A stretch of DNA of 64,000 nt from Ruania albidiflava DSM 18029 (GTDB lineage Bacteria; Actinomycetota; Actinomycetes; Actinomycetales; Beutenbergiaceae), in assembly GCF_000421225.1 (NCBI RefSeq), contig NZ_ATWL01000010.1, positions 62,001 through 126,000 of the forward strand, written 5' to 3'. Positions 19,131 to 26,046 of the stretch are shown here, one piece after another; within the stretch, counting starts at the first letter, position 1; each line of letters opens with the position of its first letter. Under the pieces are notes generated by a model, which saw nothing but the letters and a program-made list of their open reading frames with translations, ran no database searches and was not told the origin of the DNA. The position numbers and the translations under genes are program-made.

Positions 19131-19903
19131 GAGCCTCCCATTCCGTCCTTGGTGTCCGGGATGTAGCGCAGCCACACCACACCCTGCCCCAAGTTCTCCA
19201 CGTGGGTGAGTTCGAACTGGGTGTCCCGGATCGAGCTGTAGGGTTCCTTGGCGGTGAAGAAGCGAGGTGCCTCCGGGTCGCCGTTGGCGACCGGGGCGAG
19301 GATCATGCTGACCTCGTCCACGAGTTCCTGCTGGACGAACGACCAGTTGATGGTGCCCCCGCCACCGACCATGAGCCGTTCGATGCCGAACCCGACCAAC
19401 TTGTGCAGCATCACCCCGTAGTCGATCTGCTCGCTGCCGGCGATGATGTAGGACATCCCCTGGCGACGCAAGAAGTCCTTGTACGCGTTGCCCGCAGCCT
19501 CGGTGAGGACCTCGATCACGTGGGCGGGCACGCCACCGTAGCCGAAGCTGTTGGATTCCCAGGCGAGCTCTCCTCGCGGGTCGATCGAGACGTAGTACAT
19601 CTCCGCATCCTGGGCAGCGTTGAAGTCGCCGTCCGGAACCGGGGCGGCGTTCTCGTCGACGTCGGGGCCCCGGTAGTGGGTGATGTTGTCCTCGGTCGAG
19701 ATCTTGCCGTTGAGGTAGGCGTCGATGTCCAACTTCTGCTTACCCGGAGTCAGGGCGATGTCCTGGTAGTGCTGGCTGCCCGCGTGAAACCCAGGCTGGT
19801 CGATGGTGTTGATGTTGCCGTCGATGGCAGTGTGCGTGTGTGGATGATGACGTAGGGGCGAGTCACTGCTATTTCCTCTCGTTGTCTGCGTGTCGTGGCT
19901 CAT
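19127..19903 (-). CDS. Dihydrofolate reductase-like (RibD C-terminal) protein, probably frameshifted near its start
   Basis: A reductase of the DHFR/RibD fold. The sequence contains HTAIDGNINTIDQPGFHAGS, IERLMVGGGGTINWSFVQQ and LVDEVSMILAPVANGD, with the diagnostic GGGGTIN loop at about residue 178. The frame can be read from an ATG at 19903, but its first 20 residues look unlike the family. A GTG at 19866, with GAGAGG upstream, reads VTRPYVIIHT, the expected family N-terminus, in the neighbouring frame. A 1-nt indel near 19840 therefore probably broke the gene. It is located between an SDR and a nonsense-mutated alcohol dehydrogenase. Confidence 0.7.
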   Translation of the reverse strand: MSHDTQTTRGNSSDSPLRHHPHTHTAIDGNINTIDQPGFHAGSQHYQDIALTPGKQKLDIDAYLNGKISTEDNITHYRGPDVDENAAPVPDGDFNAAQDAEMYYVSIDPRGELAWESNSFGYGGVPAHVIEVLTEAAGNAYKDFLRRQGMSYIIAGSEQIDYGVMLHKLVGFGIERLMVGGGGTINWSFVQQELVDEVSMILAPVANGDPEAPRFFTAKEPYSSIRDTQFELTHVENLGQGVVWLRYIPDTKDGMGGS

Positions 19904-20925
19904 GGGGTGAGCATGACCTTGATTGCGGTGCGCTCGGCCATCGCGGCGTAGCCCTCGGCGGCCCGATCCAGCGGCAGAGTCAGGTCGAAGACCTTGCCGG
20001 GATCGATCGTGCGGTCCCAGATGAGCCGGATCAGCTCCGGCAGGTAGCGGCGCACCGGGGCGGGGCCGCCGTGGAGGTGGACCTCGGCGAAGAACACCTC
20101 GTCCATCGGCAGATGCACGCCTTCGTGGGCGACGCCGACGAAACCGACATGACCGCCTCCCCTGGCCGAATGGATGGCCTGCATGAAGGACTCCTGGGTG
20201 CCGACGGCCTCGATGACCGAGTCTGCACCGAGTCCGTTCGTTAGGTCCTTGACCTTGGCGACGGCGGCCTCGCCGCGCTCCTCGACGATGTCGGTGGCAC
20301 CGAACTCGCGCACCAGCGCCTAACGGTCGGCGTGACGCGACATGGCGATGATCCGCTCCGCGCCCATCTGCCGGGCGGCAAGCACGCCCATCAGGCCGAC
20401 CGCTCCGTCACCTACAACGGCGACGGTGTTCCCAGGACCCGCCTGGGCGGCGTCGGCGGCGAACCAGCCGGTACCGAGCACGTCGGAGGCCGCCAGCAGC
20501 GAAGGGATGAGGTCGTCGTCCGGCTGACCGGGGGTGGCTACCAGCGTGCCGTCGGCGTAGGGGATGCGGGCACGCTCGGCCTGGGTACCGATGGTGCCGT
20601 GGACGAACTCAGCGTTCACGCACTTCGACTGATACCCCGAGCGACACAGCTCGCAGGTGCCGTCGGAGATGACGAAGGACCCGACGACGAAGTCACCGGG
20701 CTGGACAGTTAGTACCTCGGAACCGACCTCTTCGACGACGCCGATGTACTCATGTCCCATCAGTAGGTGGTCGGCCAGCTCGACGCCACGGTAGGGCCAC
20801 AGGTCCGACCCGCAGATGCAGCTCGCGGTCAGGCGGACGACCGCGTCGGTCGGTTCGATGACCCTCGGGTCCTCACGCTCGGTGACGCTGACCTGTCCGG
20901 GGGCGTCCATGCTGACTGCGCGCAT
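19900..20925 (-). pseudogene. Zinc-dependent alcohol dehydrogenase interrupted by an amber codon
   Basis: Starts at ATG 20925 behind AAAGGAG. Zinc-ADH features: ASCICGSDLWPYRG (catalytic Cys), MGHEYIGVVEEVG (catalytic His-Glu), CELCRSGYQSKC (structural-zinc cysteines), and the Rossmann VAVVGDGAVGLMGVLAA. At 20320-20322 a TAG follows SRHADR; the same frame then resumes at once with ALVREFGATDIV and runs to 19900. A single CAG-to-TAG change explains it. Without readthrough, the truncated protein lacks about 40% of its length. It heads an operon (4-bp overlaps) with the DHFR-like and SDR genes. Confidence 0.85.
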
Positions 20926-20993
20926 GGTGGTGGCTCCTTTCACCGTCATCCTTCGATGCAGTTCCTCCAGTGCACCACTGATCCACCGGTCGT

Positions 20994-22104: not shown

Positions 22105-22133
22105 TCAGGTTGAAAATCTGAACTCCACCACGT
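22105..22133 (-). repeat. Diverged copy of the ychF 3' end
   Basis: On the minus strand this encodes VVEFRFST followed by TGA, against VVEFRFNV-stop at the end of ychF. Fourteen bases (22120-22133) are identical to 24976-24989. No ychF sequence precedes it. It looks like an old attachment-site half at the outer edge of the VapBC module. The rest of 21991-22181 contains no gene. Confidence 0.55.
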
Positions 22134-22181
22134 TCCGGCACGTACGGCCGTCTCATGACCTGGCAGCACGACCTCGAGGAG

Positions 22182-22601
22182 TCAGACCAGCGAGAGCGTC
22201 TCCACGGGCTGACCGGTGATCTCGGCGATGAGGCCGAAGTCCTTGTCAACGGCCAGTACCGTCAGTCCGGCCTTCTCAGCGGTCGCTGCGATGAGCAGAT
22301 CCGGGATGGACGGAGCGCGATGCTGGCCACGGTCGGCAAGGAGCATCTGCACCTCGAAGGCTCGGTCCTCCATAGCGGGCGTGAGGTGCTCGATTGGCAT
22401 CAGCACTAGCGGAGGCATGTCGAAGATCATGCGGCCGGACTGACCAGTGCGCACAGAGAAGCCGATCTCAAGCCTCGTAATCGTCGACACCCGCACGAGA
22501 CCTCGCTCGATTCGCGAGTTCCATTGTTCGGCGTCCGCTGCCTGCCCCAACTGCATCCGCACGTACGCGGACCTGTCGATGAGCCAGTTCGTCAGCGCCA
22601 T
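22182..22601 (-). CDS. vapC: VapC-type PIN-domain toxin
   Basis: A 139-residue PIN-domain ribonuclease starting [15 protein letters not shown]. The acidic residues of the active site are visible: Asp in LIDRSA (about residue 9), Glu in TRLEIGF (about 45), Asp in [11 protein letters not shown] (about 100) and Asp in VDKDFGLI (about 119). VapC toxins cleave tRNA or rRNA when freed from the antitoxin. The start overlaps the end of vapB by 10 bp. The module appears intact. Confidence 0.9.
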
Positions 22602-22813
22602 GCGTCAGCCATGATGTCCGGATCGGCGAGGTCGGCGAGAACCTCCGCCGATCGCTTCCAGCTCTCTTCTGTGACCTTCGCCGCCGGACGGGGTCCGTCC
22701 CCCTCGAGACGGCGGCGCAAGTACTCGTTCCGGGATAGGCCCAACTCCTCGGCACTCCGATCAATCCGAGCGACCGTCTCGTCGCTGAGTCCACGAATCA
22801 GCACGTTCGTCAT
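22592..22813 (-). CDS. vapB: VapB-type ribbon-helix-helix antitoxin
   Basis: A 73-residue antitoxin. [38 protein letters not shown] is a typical ribbon-helix-helix DNA-binding domain, and the acidic C-terminus ([16 protein letters not shown]) would wrap around VapC. ATG 22813 is chosen; the frame is open far upstream. It lies directly upstream of vapC and would autorepress the operon. A relic of the same junction lies at 14018-14072. Confidence 0.88.
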
Positions 22814-22874
22814 GGTGACCACCCTCCACAGCCGGATGACATCATGATATCGCTCCATGCCTGCCGGGGTAACG

Positions 22875-22900
22875 ATCACACGTTGAAGCGGAACTCCACC
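22875..22900 (-). repeat. Exact 26-bp copy of the ychF 3' end (attachment-site-like)
   Basis: These 26 bp are identical to 24960-24985, which form the last eight codons and stop of ychF. On the minus strand they again read VEFRFNV-stop, in frame with unrelated upstream sequence. Two direct copies 2,085 bp apart bracket the YoeB relic, the hxlR/oxidoreductase pair and the HEPN/MNT relic. This is the pattern expected of attL/attR flanking an integrated element. Confidence 0.7.
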
Positions 22901-22964
22901 GACTTCCGTGACAGACCAACCTCTGAGAGCCAGACCGATATCGGGACCCCGACGGGCGATCCGG

Positions 22965-23078
22965 TCAATAGTGGTATCGGGCCTGCAGGATGACGAGGTC
23001 GTCGTCCACAACGTGGTGGACCAGCCGACGCTCGTTGGCGGTGCCCCGCGACCACGCACCCTGCAGCCAACGCTGCGC
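22965..23078 (-). pseudogene. YoeB/Txe-type toxin remnant (C-terminus)
   Basis: The minus strand encodes about 37 residues including WLQGAWSRGTANERRLVHHV and DDDLVILQARYHY-stop. The latter is the highly conserved YoeB/Txe C-terminus, where the RYHY end carries the catalytic histidine and tyrosine. The N-terminal half of the roughly 85-residue toxin is absent and no YefM antitoxin precedes it. It is a dead fragment within the ychF-flanked segment. Confidence 0.7.
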
Positions 23079-23131
23079 ATCCGAGCGCCGAGTGACACCA
23101 CAGGCCATGCGGGCGGGACCGACGGAGACAG

Positions 23132-23473
23132 TCAGGCGGCGTTGCTCTCCACCCAGTCGCGAAGGTGCTTCAACGGCACCGCAGCGCCAGCACCCAGCTC
23201 CGTCAGCTCGTACTCGACGCGCAGGGGCACTTCGGCATAGGCCGTGCGGGTGATCAGCTCGCGATCCTCCAGGCGTTTCAACGTCTGGGACAGGACCTTC
23301 GGGCTGACACCCTCCAGTCTCAGCCGGAGCTGTCCGAACCTTCGCGGCCCATCCTCGAGCGCACCGATCACGAGTGCACTCCACTTGCTCGCCAGCAGGT
23401 CGAGCATGTCCCGGCACGGGCACATCGCGGCGTACACGTCGTTACGATCGCAGGAGTCAGTCGTCGTCGCCAT
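23132..23473 (-). CDS. HxlR-family transcriptional regulator
   Basis: A 113-residue winged-helix regulator. It has the typical N-terminal cysteines CPCRDMLDLLASKWSALVIGAL, then RFGQLRLRLEGVSPKVLSQTLKRLEDRELI (recognition region, about residues 45-75). ATG 23473 is selected because upstream codons enter the divergent promoter. The Cys residues suggest redox or electrophile sensing, as in QorR/YodB-type members. It faces a quinone-oxidoreductase-like gene, its probable target. Confidence 0.87.
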   Translation of the reverse strand: MATTTDSCDRNDVYAAMCPCRDMLDLLASKWSALVIGALEDGPRRFGQLRLRLEGVSPKVLSQTLKRLEDRELITRTAYAEVPLRVEYELTELGAGAAVPLKHLRDWVESNAA

Positions 23474-23481
23474 GCTCCGAC

Positions 23482-23518
23482 AGTACCCGATAGGAACCAG
23501 CGTGCCTTGCGGGTAACT
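23482..23518. promoter_or_regulatory. Dyad in the hxlR/oxidoreductase divergent promoter
   Basis: AGTACCC (near 23482) and GGGTAACT (ending 23518) form an inverted repeat in the 70-bp region between the two starts. HxlR proteins bind such A/T-flanked dyads as dimers and typically repress both directions. Confidence 0.5.
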
Positions 23519-23543
23519 AGGGTCGATGGGGAACCATCGCGGT

Positions 23544-24554
23544 ATGGACACCAACATCGCTCTGGGATACGAGCAGAACCTTCCCGCTTCCGATCCCGCC
23601 AGCATCCTCTCTCGTCACGTCGACATGCCGGATCCGGCTCCTCATGATCTGATCGTCGAGGTGCGCGCAGTCTCGGTGAACCCGGTCGACGTCAAGCTCC
23701 GGGCCAGCGCACCCTCCGAAGGGTTCCGCGTTCTCGGCTTCGACGCCGCGGGCGTCGTCTTACGTGTCGGCAGCGAGGTGACGCTCTTCTCTCCCGGCGA
23801 CGAGGTCTTCTACGCCGGGTCGATCGACCGCCCCGGTACCAACCAACGCTTCCACGCCGTCGATGAGCGCATCGTCGGACGCAAGCCGGCGTCACTGTCG
23901 TTCGCCGAAGCTGCTGCACTTCCGCTCACCTCGATCACCGCGTGGGAGACGCTGTTCGACAGGTTCCGCCTGACCCAGGAGAGCAATGGCACCCTGCTCG
24001 TCGTCGGAGCCACCGGCGGAGTCGGCTCCGCCGTGGTCCAGCTCGCTGAGGCGCTGCTGCCCGGTGTCTCGGTGATCGCGAGCGCGTCGGATGCAGAGCG
24101 CGCAGCATGGGTCACCGAGCTCGGCGCGGAGCACACGATCGACCACCGCCTCGATCTCGCCTCGCAGGTGCAGGAGATCGCGCCACAGGGAGTCGACTGG
24201 CTCTTCACCGCGCACTCGGACGAGCAGATCCCGACGTACGCGGACATCGTGCGGCCGTTCGGCCAGATCACCGCCATCGATGACGGACCCCGAGACGTGT
24301 CGCCGCTGAAGGCTAAGAGCATCACGTGGCACTGGGAGCTCATGTTCACCCGCCCCGTCCAGCGCACCGCCGACATGATCGAGCAGCACCGCCTGCTCAA
24401 CGCGATCGCCGACCTCGTCGACACAGGGCGCCTACGGAGCACGGTCACCCGCTCACTCTCACCGATCACGCCTGAAACGCTCCGAGAGGCGCATGCGCTC
24501 ATCGAGGGCGGCAGAACTCTCGGCAAGATCGTGCTCCATGACTGGGCGTCCTGA
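23544..24554 (+). CDS. Zinc-binding-type/quinone oxidoreductase (MDR family)
   Basis: A 336-residue MDR oxidoreductase starting MDTNIALGYEQN. VSVNPVDVKLRAS and VLGFDAAGVVLRVGSEV form the GroES-like domain. The nucleotide motif is LLVVGATGGVGSAVVQLAEAL (about residues 150-170). It lacks zinc-ligand cysteines and fits the ZADH/quinone-oxidoreductase group (zinc-binding alcohol dehydrogenase family, YhdH-like), reducing quinones or enones with NADPH. It is divergent from hxlR. It appears intact within the otherwise decayed segment. Confidence 0.87.
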   Translation: MDTNIALGYEQNLPASDPASILSRHVDMPDPAPHDLIVEVRAVSVNPVDVKLRASAPSEGFRVLGFDAAGVVLRVGSEVTLFSPGDEVFYAGSIDRPGTNQRFHAVDERIVGRKPASLSFAEAAALPLTSITAWETLFDRFRLTQESNGTLLVVGATGGVGSAVVQLAEALLPGVSVIASASDAERAAWVTELGAEHTIDHRLDLASQVQEIAPQGVDWLFTAHSDEQIPTYADIVRPFGQITAIDDGPRDVSPLKAKSITWHWELMFTRPVQRTADMIEQHRLLNAIADLVDTGRLRSTVTRSLSPITPETLREAHALIEGGRTLGKIVLHDWAS

Positions 24555-24594
24555 GAGCAGAACGCCGAGTTCCGGTACGTACAGCCATCTGGAG

Positions 24595-24708
24595 TGCCGG
24601 ACACTCCGGCGACCCAGTCGGAGCCCCGCCGAGAGCAGCGACATACCGCTCGCAGCGCTCGATCGCTGCCAGAACGTCAGTGATCCGCTGAGCAGGGTCG
24701 CGCCTCAC
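24595..24708 (-). pseudogene. HEPN-type toxin fragment (DUF86)
   Basis: The minus strand from GTG 24708 encodes RRDPAQRITDVLAAIERCER and YVAAL, the start of a DUF86/HEPN toxin. After about 38 residues similarity ends and the frame runs into the 3' end of the oxidoreductase gene. The Rx4-6H catalytic motif is lost. Its start overlaps the MNT gene stop by 4 bp, as in intact HEPN/MNT modules. Confidence 0.55.
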
Positions 24709-24953
24709 AGGGCGACCGCATCCGCGAGAGCCGAGTCCGAGACCGGGCGCTTGAGAAGCTGGACAGGGAACACGTCGATATCGTCGCGACCGAACAGTGC
24801 TCGCGTCTCCTCCATCAGACCGGAGGCCCGCATCAGCAGGTTCCCGTCCGCAGGATCCATCTCGACGAGAATGTCGATGTCCGACCCCGAGTACGCGGTG
24901 CCGCGCGACGGAGCCGAACAGCTTGGGGCTGGTCGCGCCTGCGTCGATGGCAC
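24705..24953 (-). pseudogene. MNT-type nucleotidyltransferase antitoxin remnant
   Basis: The frame encodes SGSDIDILVEMDPADGNLLM and an ALFGRDDIDVFPVQLL segment, the core of a minimal nucleotidyltransferase with the SDxD metal site. The preceding LFGSVAR motif is found in the neighbouring frame (about 24905-24925), so a 1-nt indel separates the two halves of the GS-SDxD active site. The N-terminus is cut off at the ychF 3'-end repeat. In intact modules this protein modifies and silences the HEPN toxin encoded next to it. Confidence 0.65.
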
Positions 24954-24959
24954 CGGAGC

Positions 24960-24985
24960 ATCACACGTTGAAGCGGAACTCCACC
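24960..24985 (-). repeat. ychF 3'-end 26-bp repeat (inner attachment-like copy)
   Basis: Identical to 22875-22900. It lies within the functional ychF 3' end, so insertion here restores an intact stop and C-terminus, as phage and island integrases do with tRNA and some protein genes. Confidence 0.7.
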
Positions 24986-26046
24986 ACGTCGCCGTCAGCC
25001 ATCACGTAGTCCTTGCCCTCGATGCGCACCTGGCCGCGTGACTTGGCCTCCGCCATCGACCCGGCGTCCATCAGCTCCTCGAAGGAGACCACTTCGGCCT
25101 TGATGAAGCCGCGTTCGAAGTCGGTGTGGATCACTCCCGCCGCCTGCGGCGCCTTCCAGCCCTTCCCGATGGTCCAGGCACGGGACTCCTTCGGTCCGGC
25201 GGTCAGGTAGGTCTGCAACCCGAGGGTGTCGAACCCGACGCGGGCGAGCTGGTCCAGACCGGACTCGCTCTGCCCGGTCTCGGCGAGCATCTCGGCGGCC
25301 TCCTCCGGCTCCAGCTCCACGAGCTCGGCCTCGAACTTCGCGTCCAGGAAGATCGCCGGTGCCGGGGCGACCAGCTCGCGCAGCCGGACCTGCATCGCCT
25401 CGTCGGCCAGCCCCTCGTCGTCGGTGTTGAACACGTAGATGAACGGCTTGGCGGTGAGCAGCTGGAACTGGGCGAGGATCTCCGGGTCCAGCCCGGCCGT
25501 AGCCGCACCGGCCGACACGGTCTGCCCGGACTCCAGCAGCGCCATCGCACCCTTGGCGGTGTCCAGCACCTGCGGCTCGATCTTCTTCCCGCGCAGCTCC
25601 TTCTCCAGCCGCGGCAGCGCCTTCTCCAACGTCTGCAGGTCGGCAAGGATGAGCTCGGTGTTGATCGTCTCGATGTCGTCGGCCGGGGAGACCTTGCCGT
25701 CCACGTGCACCACGTCCGGGTCGGCGAAGGCACGGGTCACCTGGCAGATCGCGTCCGCCTCGCGGATGTTGGCGAGGAACTTGTTGCCCAGCCCCTCCCC
25801 CTCGCTGGCGCCCTTGACGATGCCGGCGATGTCCACGAAGGACACGGTCGCCGGGATCTCCTTCTCGCTGCCGAACACCTGCGCGAGCCGGCCGAGGCGC
25901 TCATCGGGAAGCGGCACCACCCCGATGTTCGGCTCGATGGTGGCGAACGGGTAGTTCGCCGCGAGCACGGTCGCGCGGGTGAGGGCGTTGAAGAGCGTCG
26001 ACTTGCCCACGTTGGGCAGGCCAGCGATACCGATAGTCAGGGCCAC
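24961..26046 (-). CDS. ychF: YchF/Obg-family redox-regulated ATPase
   Basis: A 361-residue P-loop protein. G1 is GLPNVGKSTLFNAL (about residues 8-21), G3 is VDIAGIVKGASEGEGLGN (about 71-88), and the altered G4 FNTDDEG replaces NKxD, explaining the ATP rather than GTP preference of the family. The C-terminal TGS domain ends DYVMADGDVVEFRFNV. It binds ribosomes and influences stress and antioxidant responses. It is complete, with its last codons duplicated twice downstream (22875 exact, 22105 diverged). Confidence 0.95.
   Translation of the reverse strand: MALTIGIAGLPNVGKSTLFNALTRATVLAANYPFATIEPNIGVVPLPDERLGRLAQVFGSEKEIPATVSFVDIAGIVKGASEGEGLGNKFLANIREADAICQVTRAFADPDVVHVDGKVSPADDIETINTELILADLQTLEKALPRLEKELRGKKIEPQVLDTAKGAMALLESGQTVSAGAATAGLDPEILAQFQLLTAKPFIYVFNTDDEGLADEAMQVRLRELVAPAPAIFLDAKFEAELVELEPEEAAEMLAETGQSESGLDQLARVGFDTLGLQTYLTAGPKESRAWTIGKGWKAPQAAGVIHTDFERGFIKAEVVSFEELMDAGSMAEAKSRGQVRIEGKDYVMADGDVVEFRFNV

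Follow-up and report, generated by a model that had tools for sequence, protein, structure and literature searches.

The 3' end of ychF is probably the attB of an actinobacterial clade of large serine recombinases and carries an orphan-prone cassette array

Small exchangeable cassettes gathered at a fixed entry point are known above all from integrons, whose orphan attC clusters are called CALINs. The staphylococcal and enterococcal cassette chromosomes (SCC and ECC) insert where a conserved gene ends, and for them one report describes CcrAB at the 3' end of rlmH, att sites of ~50 bp with dyad symmetry, ECC sizes of 21–78 kb and several attR sites in 16 of 32 ECCs (PMC6222049). A pneumococcal prophage is described as having its attB between a DUF951 gene and ychF (PMC8637289). 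Here we report on the DNA behind ychF in a stretch of 64,000 nucleotides from Ruania albidiflava DSM 18029 (the window; contig NZ_ATWL01000010.1, positions 62,001 to 126,000) and in related actinobacteria. We consider it likely that the 3' end of ychF is the attB of an actinobacterial clade of large serine recombinases (LSRs) and that an orphan-prone array of small cassettes lies there beside the full elements of this clade. A first-pass annotation of the window had regarded ychF as a little-described target, and no description of a cassette system at the ychF end was found by title and abstract in the open-licence PubMed Central literature.

The ychF gene of the window (24961–26046, minus strand) has matches to Pfam YchF-GTPase_C and MMR_HSR1, and its 3' end is the insertion site. 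The exact 26-bp direct repeat of this end reported in the first-pass annotation was found again at both of its positions, 22875–22900 and 24960–24985, the former lying 2,085 bp downstream of the ychF 3' end. The diverged third copy, 2,856 bp downstream at 22105–22128, is also real and scores 31.4 bits by the site model described below. All three copies are on the minus strand and run in the same direction as ychF. With three mismatches allowed, the inner 24 bp of the repeat occur at only two places in the 4.17-Mb assembly, and a reversed-pattern control gave no match. Exactness by itself is weak evidence because the window contains two other exact same-strand repeats of at least 24 bp. These two repeats are 25–26 bp long: TCGACCAGGCGAGGACCGTCCGGGAA and GGACTTGCCGGTGCCGGCCCGGCCG. 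What settles the reality of the ychF repeat is the comparison of sequences across loci, which confirmed it: in the 9 kb downstream of the gene, the ychF 26-mer is matched at 23 or more of 26 positions in 5 of 62 loci, as compared with 4 of 1240 26-mers drawn at random from those loci; for 20 or more positions the figures are 10 of 62 loci and 30 of 1240 random 26-mers. Matches at 19 or more of 26 positions were found in none of the 62 loci on the opposite strand and in none upstream.

The distal copies are each preceded by a conserved stretch that does not belong to ychF, with the consensus AGA.GTT..TC.GT..CGGAACGTG. The distal site is a composite in which this foreign half-site of ~25 bp (P) is joined to the 24-bp tail of ychF (B'), and the array is serial, not nested as had been proposed. 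The sample comprised 80 ychF loci, eight genomes of the window genus, and later whole-genome matches; loci and genomes are cited below by handles such as L009 and G028. The site model, a hidden Markov model, was trained on 33 sites from the first loci, where its scores are circular, and most of the later arrays (L146–L162) were found by searching genomes with a model built from 27 of these sites. Among the 78 actinobacterial ychF loci with at least 2 kb of downstream sequence, 16 have a P-B' site downstream in the orientation of ychF by this model, and 17 have some kind of distal site that scores at least 20 bits; there were no reversed sites and no upstream sites at this score. Searches with a sequence-only Infernal model gave matches in 23 of 24 genomes of the family (E ≤ 0.01) and in 116 of 248 of the order (E ≤ 1e-7), counts that include matches to the ychF end alone. 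In 38 of the 40 genomes in which ychF was located, a P-bearing site is among the matches listed; G034 has only a weak P-bearing match, and G035 has none among the matches listed. The site lies on the ychF contig, downstream and on the same strand, in 33 of the 38 genomes, at a distance of 0.7 to 41 kb, and these include all 14 with four contigs or fewer; G194 and G265 have one extra site each on another contig. From these comparisons, the ychF end is the main place of P-B' sites.

In all, 129 distal sites bounding 114 units were found in 47 of 112 loci, a set that includes 20 stretches picked for their arrays, and there can be as many as nine distal sites in one stretch. No reversed distal site reached 15 bits in any of these loci. 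The quartiles of unit length are 0.9, 1.6, and 2.9 kb, and 98 of the 114 units are no longer than 5 kb. Comparisons between genomes make the units between sites look mobile. Demequina mangrovi (L009) and D. gelatinilytica (L012) have a unit in common that matches at 96.4% over 1895 bp, from core to core, whereas their ychF ends are only 86% identical; in L009 a further unit of 633 bp separates this common one from ychF. A nucleotidyltransferase-like unit matches at 99.0% over 1038 bp, again from core to core, between the Micrococcales genome G103 (L158) and a Nocardia farcinica record (L168, NZ_LN868939.1), and apart from this the two stretches match only in one unit at 71%. Another unit, with toxin-antitoxin genes that we take to be HigBA-like, starts at the first base past the core in at least 15 loci, as well as in L010 and L022, and is directly behind ychF in some loci and kilobases away in others. 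Two genomes of the window genus, G002 and G005, match at 96% as far as the final bases of ychF; collinearity resumes only at 9.0 and 7.2 kb, respectively, with two short matches of ~0.1 kb each in between. In Pseudarthrobacter, L062, which lacks a site, becomes collinear with L082 at 1.3 kb in the former and 3.0 kb in the latter. Uninterrupted synteny across the 21–25 kb region of the window was not seen: in six congeners compared over ~15 kb, no downstream similarity to the window was found. The cargo includes toxin-antitoxin, acetyltransferase, reductase, and regulator genes. The most common Pfam families among 117 array proteins (114 of the 213 listed array frames plus three from L009 and L021) are PIN (9), the GNAT family Acetyltransf_1 (8), and TetR_N (7), followed by short-chain dehydrogenase and HTH_3 (4 each) and HEPN and glyoxalase (3 each), and PADLOC PDC-M05 has three matches among array proteins. 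Compared in this way, the sequences demonstrate composite sites of constant orientation in a usual place, unit borders at the cores, and horizontal movement of the units. The first-pass annotation had postulated successive site-specific insertions at this end of ychF, and such insertion is supported by the presence or absence of units, by their borders at the repeats, by the occurrence of one unit at different places in arrays, and by a matching recombinase in relatives.

No gene for IntI, a tyrosine recombinase, or a Resolvase-domain protein was found inside the array stretches at the thresholds used, and IntI was above its cut-off in none of 19 array genomes. The LSR was pursued after an LSR relic was seen in L018 and pattern matches were seen in viral contigs. 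The viral contigs L163 and L165 each encode an LSR of 454 or 455 residues whose start is 8 and 16 bp from a P-B' site; the LSR reads away from the site and has both Resolvase and Recombinase domains above cut-off. The first-pass annotation had suggested a tyrosine or a serine recombinase in fuller versions of the element; the likely enzyme is of the serine kind, an LSR found in such fuller versions, and tyrosine recombinase genes are absent from the array stretches of 26 genomes. Homologues of the clade LSR (E ≤ 1e-40) are present in 66 of 396 genomes of the order. Among 30 homologue loci, the three closest (L170, L171, and L172) carry the site at the LSR start, and an LSR is directly behind ychF in L175, L178, and L183, as well as in L016. 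In a tree of 32 LSRs, the nine that adjoin a site or ychF group with three more, L177, L181, and L188, in a 12-member clade (support 0.975). These three are not among the LSRs placed at ychF; in L177 and L181 the LSR start is accompanied by a weak P-like match. For the 20 LSRs outside the clade, the matches listed include no site. In L151, L153, and L162, an N-terminal LSR relic lies ~10 bp from the P of the site farthest out; L018 is a less clear case. By these sequence positions, the LSR clade sits at the same half-sites as the cassettes. A search of viral sequences with the LSR protein returned only the contig of L165 itself. A phage match in Streptomyces phage Mulchroom (H2, E 0.5) adjoins a gene annotated as a tyrosine integrase.

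The ychF ends indicate how the sites of a full element are built. Full elements alter the last codons of ychF, and in 10 of 11 altered ends the new sequence is an inverted P (P matrix score ≥5.8; the exception is L168, at −4.5). The 92 other ychF ends have a median score of −5.8 and a maximum of 6.3, with three at 2 or more. Since the altered ychF ends are inverted P, attP appears from these sequences to be P plus an inverted copy (P-P') and attB to be B-B', with ychF-P' and P-B' as the products of their recombination. The P of eight elements (L163, L165, L170–L172, G028, G141, and L016), scored with a matrix trained on 93 cassette sites, is above 99% of random sequence; seven of the eight scores are reached by 0.01% of random sequences or fewer, and that of L170 is reached by 0.57%. 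Cassettes leave the ychF end unchanged, and the C-terminal residues of YchF are of the FN type in 74 of the 80 ends read. The restoration of the coding end on insertion, as proposed for the window, is borne out by its relatives. The element of G246 is 8.3 kb long and has a D5-type primase, a phage capsid gene, and an LSR at its distal end; that of G286 is 11.8 kb. In G028, ~40 kb separate ychF from P-B', with a relaxase and an LSR at the ychF end, a stretch that may comprise more than one element. The compact G246 element (L205:281-8608), with its primase and capsid genes, is reminiscent of a phage satellite. Inverted P directly after the core reaches the 99% level of random sequence in 9 of 152 array sites. 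Some cores in L009, L010, L012, L069, L082, and L143 are followed by an inverted P-like stretch or by a second core-like repeat. In L031 and L039 ychF ends in FRHS, with intact FRFN-type tails downstream (+2514 and +5833 from the ychF stop in L031 and +526 in L039); the tails of L031 carry longer pieces of the ychF 3' end, and these may represent another type of element at ychF.

The window contains three units, described here outward from ychF; features are on the minus strand unless stated otherwise. The entry point would be an attB-like B-B' site at 24961–24992 (core B' at 24961–24984), the presumed attB of an LSR. Unit 1 is a deleted unit of the HEPN/MNT type (24625–24947) with a P half-site that lacks the B' core (24565–24593; columns 4–32 of the site model, 10.8 bits). 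Its nucleotidyltransferase gives a weak match to Pfam NTP_transf_2 that is below the cut-off (E 0.0017), but the DNA of this unit, annotated earlier as a HEPN/MNT relic, matches units in L143 (82% over 327 bp), L009 (74% over 300 bp), and L157. The first-pass annotation had the MNT gene cut exactly at the repeat. The surviving coreless P half-site speaks against this: the gene was probably not cut by insertion, and the unit looks like a deletion relic. Unit 2 comprises a zinc-type quinone oxidoreductase (23526–24554, plus strand), an HxlR-type regulator (23132–23605 as the listed frame, with a true start probably nearer to 23474), and a YoeB relic (22965–23075), and reaches the P-B' site at 22876–22931 (core 22876–22899, P 22900–22931), which scores 51.9 bits and is one of the 33 training sites of the model. 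Both members of the regulator/reductase pair are clear Pfam matches, and the YoeB gene is a relic as first described, with only the C-terminal 36 residues matched (positions 45–80 of 80 in YoeB_toxin). Unit 3 is vapBC, consisting of a VapC-type PIN toxin (22182–22601) and a ribbon-helix-helix (RHH) antitoxin (22592–22815), and reaches the diverged P-B' site at 22105–22160 (core 22105–22128, P 22129–22160), which was not in the training set. This unit, which matches units in L143, L144, and L155, had been called intact; both frames are complete and the PIN match is above cut-off, but the antitoxin is just below (FitA-like_RHH, 24.8 bits as against 27). No further forward sites are listed in the next 11 kb beyond the outer site. 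The truncated genes look like products of decay rather than insertion borders, and the window as a whole looks like an orphan, partly decayed array of the ychF cassette system. Elsewhere in the window, a zinc-type alcohol dehydrogenase frame (19900–20949) has one in-frame stop at 20320–20322 and is a pseudogene or contains a sequencing error.

The best reading of these results is an SCC-like enzyme and attB at the ychF end that serve an integron-like cassette array. An autonomous element with attP = P-P' would insert at the ychF attB to give ychF-P', with the last residues of YchF changed, and a distal P-B'. Small units that lack a recombinase, each with B' as its left border and P-B' as its right, accumulate behind ychF in one orientation and leave its end intact. 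We infer that the LSR is the mover of the cassettes and that it cuts near the GT at the center of the site. There are two ways in which this might occur, each of which would require the LSR alone. (i) The LSR could act in trans on cassette circles, recombining B-B' with P-B' and regenerating both sites; the return of the same two sites would explain the serial growth, the polarity, and the intact ychF end. (ii) The element could excise by recombination of ychF-P' with an outer P-B', carrying cassettes along that are later left behind. A serine integron, in which LSRs of the ychF clade supplied by phages or islands insert circular P-B' cassettes at B-B' in trans, is a tentative proposal to which we give somewhat less than an even chance; because both sites share the right half, each insertion would rebuild an intact ychF and a fresh entry site.

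Several observations weigh against an LSR-driven array at ychF. The cassette sites are P-B' and not P-P', the acceptance of P-B' together with B-B' by the LSR is an assumption, and recombination is deduced from sequence alone. A perfectly empty and filled pair was not found among the congeners, G002/G005, and L062/L082. No clade LSR (E ≤ 1e-40) was found in the window genome or in the seven congeners searched, and 6 of the 26 array genomes have no Resolvase-domain match at E ≤ 1e-4; most arrays are therefore orphans. The listed P-bearing sites of G092, G103, and G142 are on a contig other than that of ychF (in G142 the array runs up to the edge of its contig), and in G103 a gene for a small resolvase precedes the array by ~4 kb. 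In G030 and G031, from one genus, P-B' is far inside another contig, so the ychF end is not the only place of these sites. The coordinates are G030:C64:7074-7131 and G031:C2:116748-116801, with no ychF and no LSR within the surrounding 3 kb. Finally, a tyrosine-integrase-like gene is present on the other side of the site in L165. In this contig (L165:1386-2624), P-B' lies between the end of that gene and the start of the LSR, so that two types of recombinase adjoin one att region.

If each unit were instead what is left, after shrinkage, of its own complete LSR prophage or island, with no cassette mobile alone, simple decay would account for the relics, namely those of LSRs in L151, L153, L162, L018, L148, and L174 and the decayed genes of the window, and large inserts of 5–17 kb between sites would also fit. 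It does not account for the shared exact units: small units with identical borders recur across genera and array positions, and the L158/L168 unit is nearly identical from core to core between flanks that, apart from one unit, are unmatched. Moreover, full elements leave ychF-P', yet the great majority of ychF ends are of the FN type, as expected after cassette insertion. We regard decay only as unlikely. The junctions might also be made by another enzyme, such as a phage-type tyrosine integrase or XerC/D, with the LSR elements merely sharing the target; the possibility of XerC/D acting at a dif-like site was judged only by eye. The gene adjoining the site in L165 and the presence of at least two Phage_integrase genes in each of the 26 array genomes would fit, but none of these genes is inside an array stretch (E ≤ 1e-6), and G001, G008, G185, G211, and G271 have only two. 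Given that nine LSRs from a single clade adjoin this half-site or ychF, and that P plus inverted P (~50 bp) fits a serine-integrase attP, this explanation seems improbable. A true integron, or an orphan cluster of attC sites whose integrase has diverged, would share the cassette sizes, cargo, and serial polarity, and some sites have pairable arms; against it stand the lack of IntI and sites that are double half-sites common to LSRs. Arm pairing within a site is barely above that between sites (permutation p = 0.044), and with inverted P in so few sites an attC-like hairpin with compensating arms is not claimed; Rfam gave no match in the window, L143, or L157. We consider a true integron very improbable. 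Chance or duplication unrelated to mobility, for which only the other exact repeats of the window speak, is ruled out for practical purposes by the recurrence in many genera, the composite structure, and the unit borders.

The system is widespread in Micrococcales and is also found in a Nocardia record; transfer between orders looks recent. It provides a framework for reading the hypervariable DNA behind ychF. Whether hybrid half-sites can be used by serine integrases becomes a testable question. The C terminus of a universal ATPase/GTPase appears to be repeatedly rewritten by mobile elements and spared by cassettes.

In comparison with described systems, the ychF arrays resemble SCC and ECC in having large-type serine recombinases, an attB formed by the end of a conserved gene, att sites of ~50 bp with dyad symmetry, and distal sites that can occur severalfold. 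They differ in the target, ychF rather than rlmH, in the phylum, and in the enzymes, six LSRs being below all Ccr model cut-offs (best CcrB match 68 bits as against 900). Unlike the ECCs of 21–78 kb, the units have a median of 1.6 kb and no recombinase, with up to nine distal sites per stretch. By phmmer, the relatives of the L165 LSR include those of TP901-1, SPbeta YokA, TnpX, and the 500-residue integrase of PDB 9iu2 (E 2.7e-18 to 6e-7), but these relatives each act on one attP and one attB, whereas here the hybrid P-B' is repeated as an array at ychF. The pneumococcal prophage is similar in the use of the ychF neighborhood by a phage; the sequence is unrelated, and a cassette array is not mentioned in the available part of that report. 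With integrons and CALINs the arrays share serial one- or two-gene cassettes before a fixed entry point, toxin-antitoxin cargo, and often no recombinase nearby, and small cassettes of exchangeable order at one entry point were indeed found. They differ from integrons in the absence of IntI, in having two half-sites of a kind common to serine recombinases, and in an entry point that is a coding end; arm pairing gives little support for folded attC-like sites. The ychF arrays look like a solution that arose independently on the basis of a serine recombinase, and we rate the system as SCC-like in enzyme and site logic and integron-like in the form of its array.

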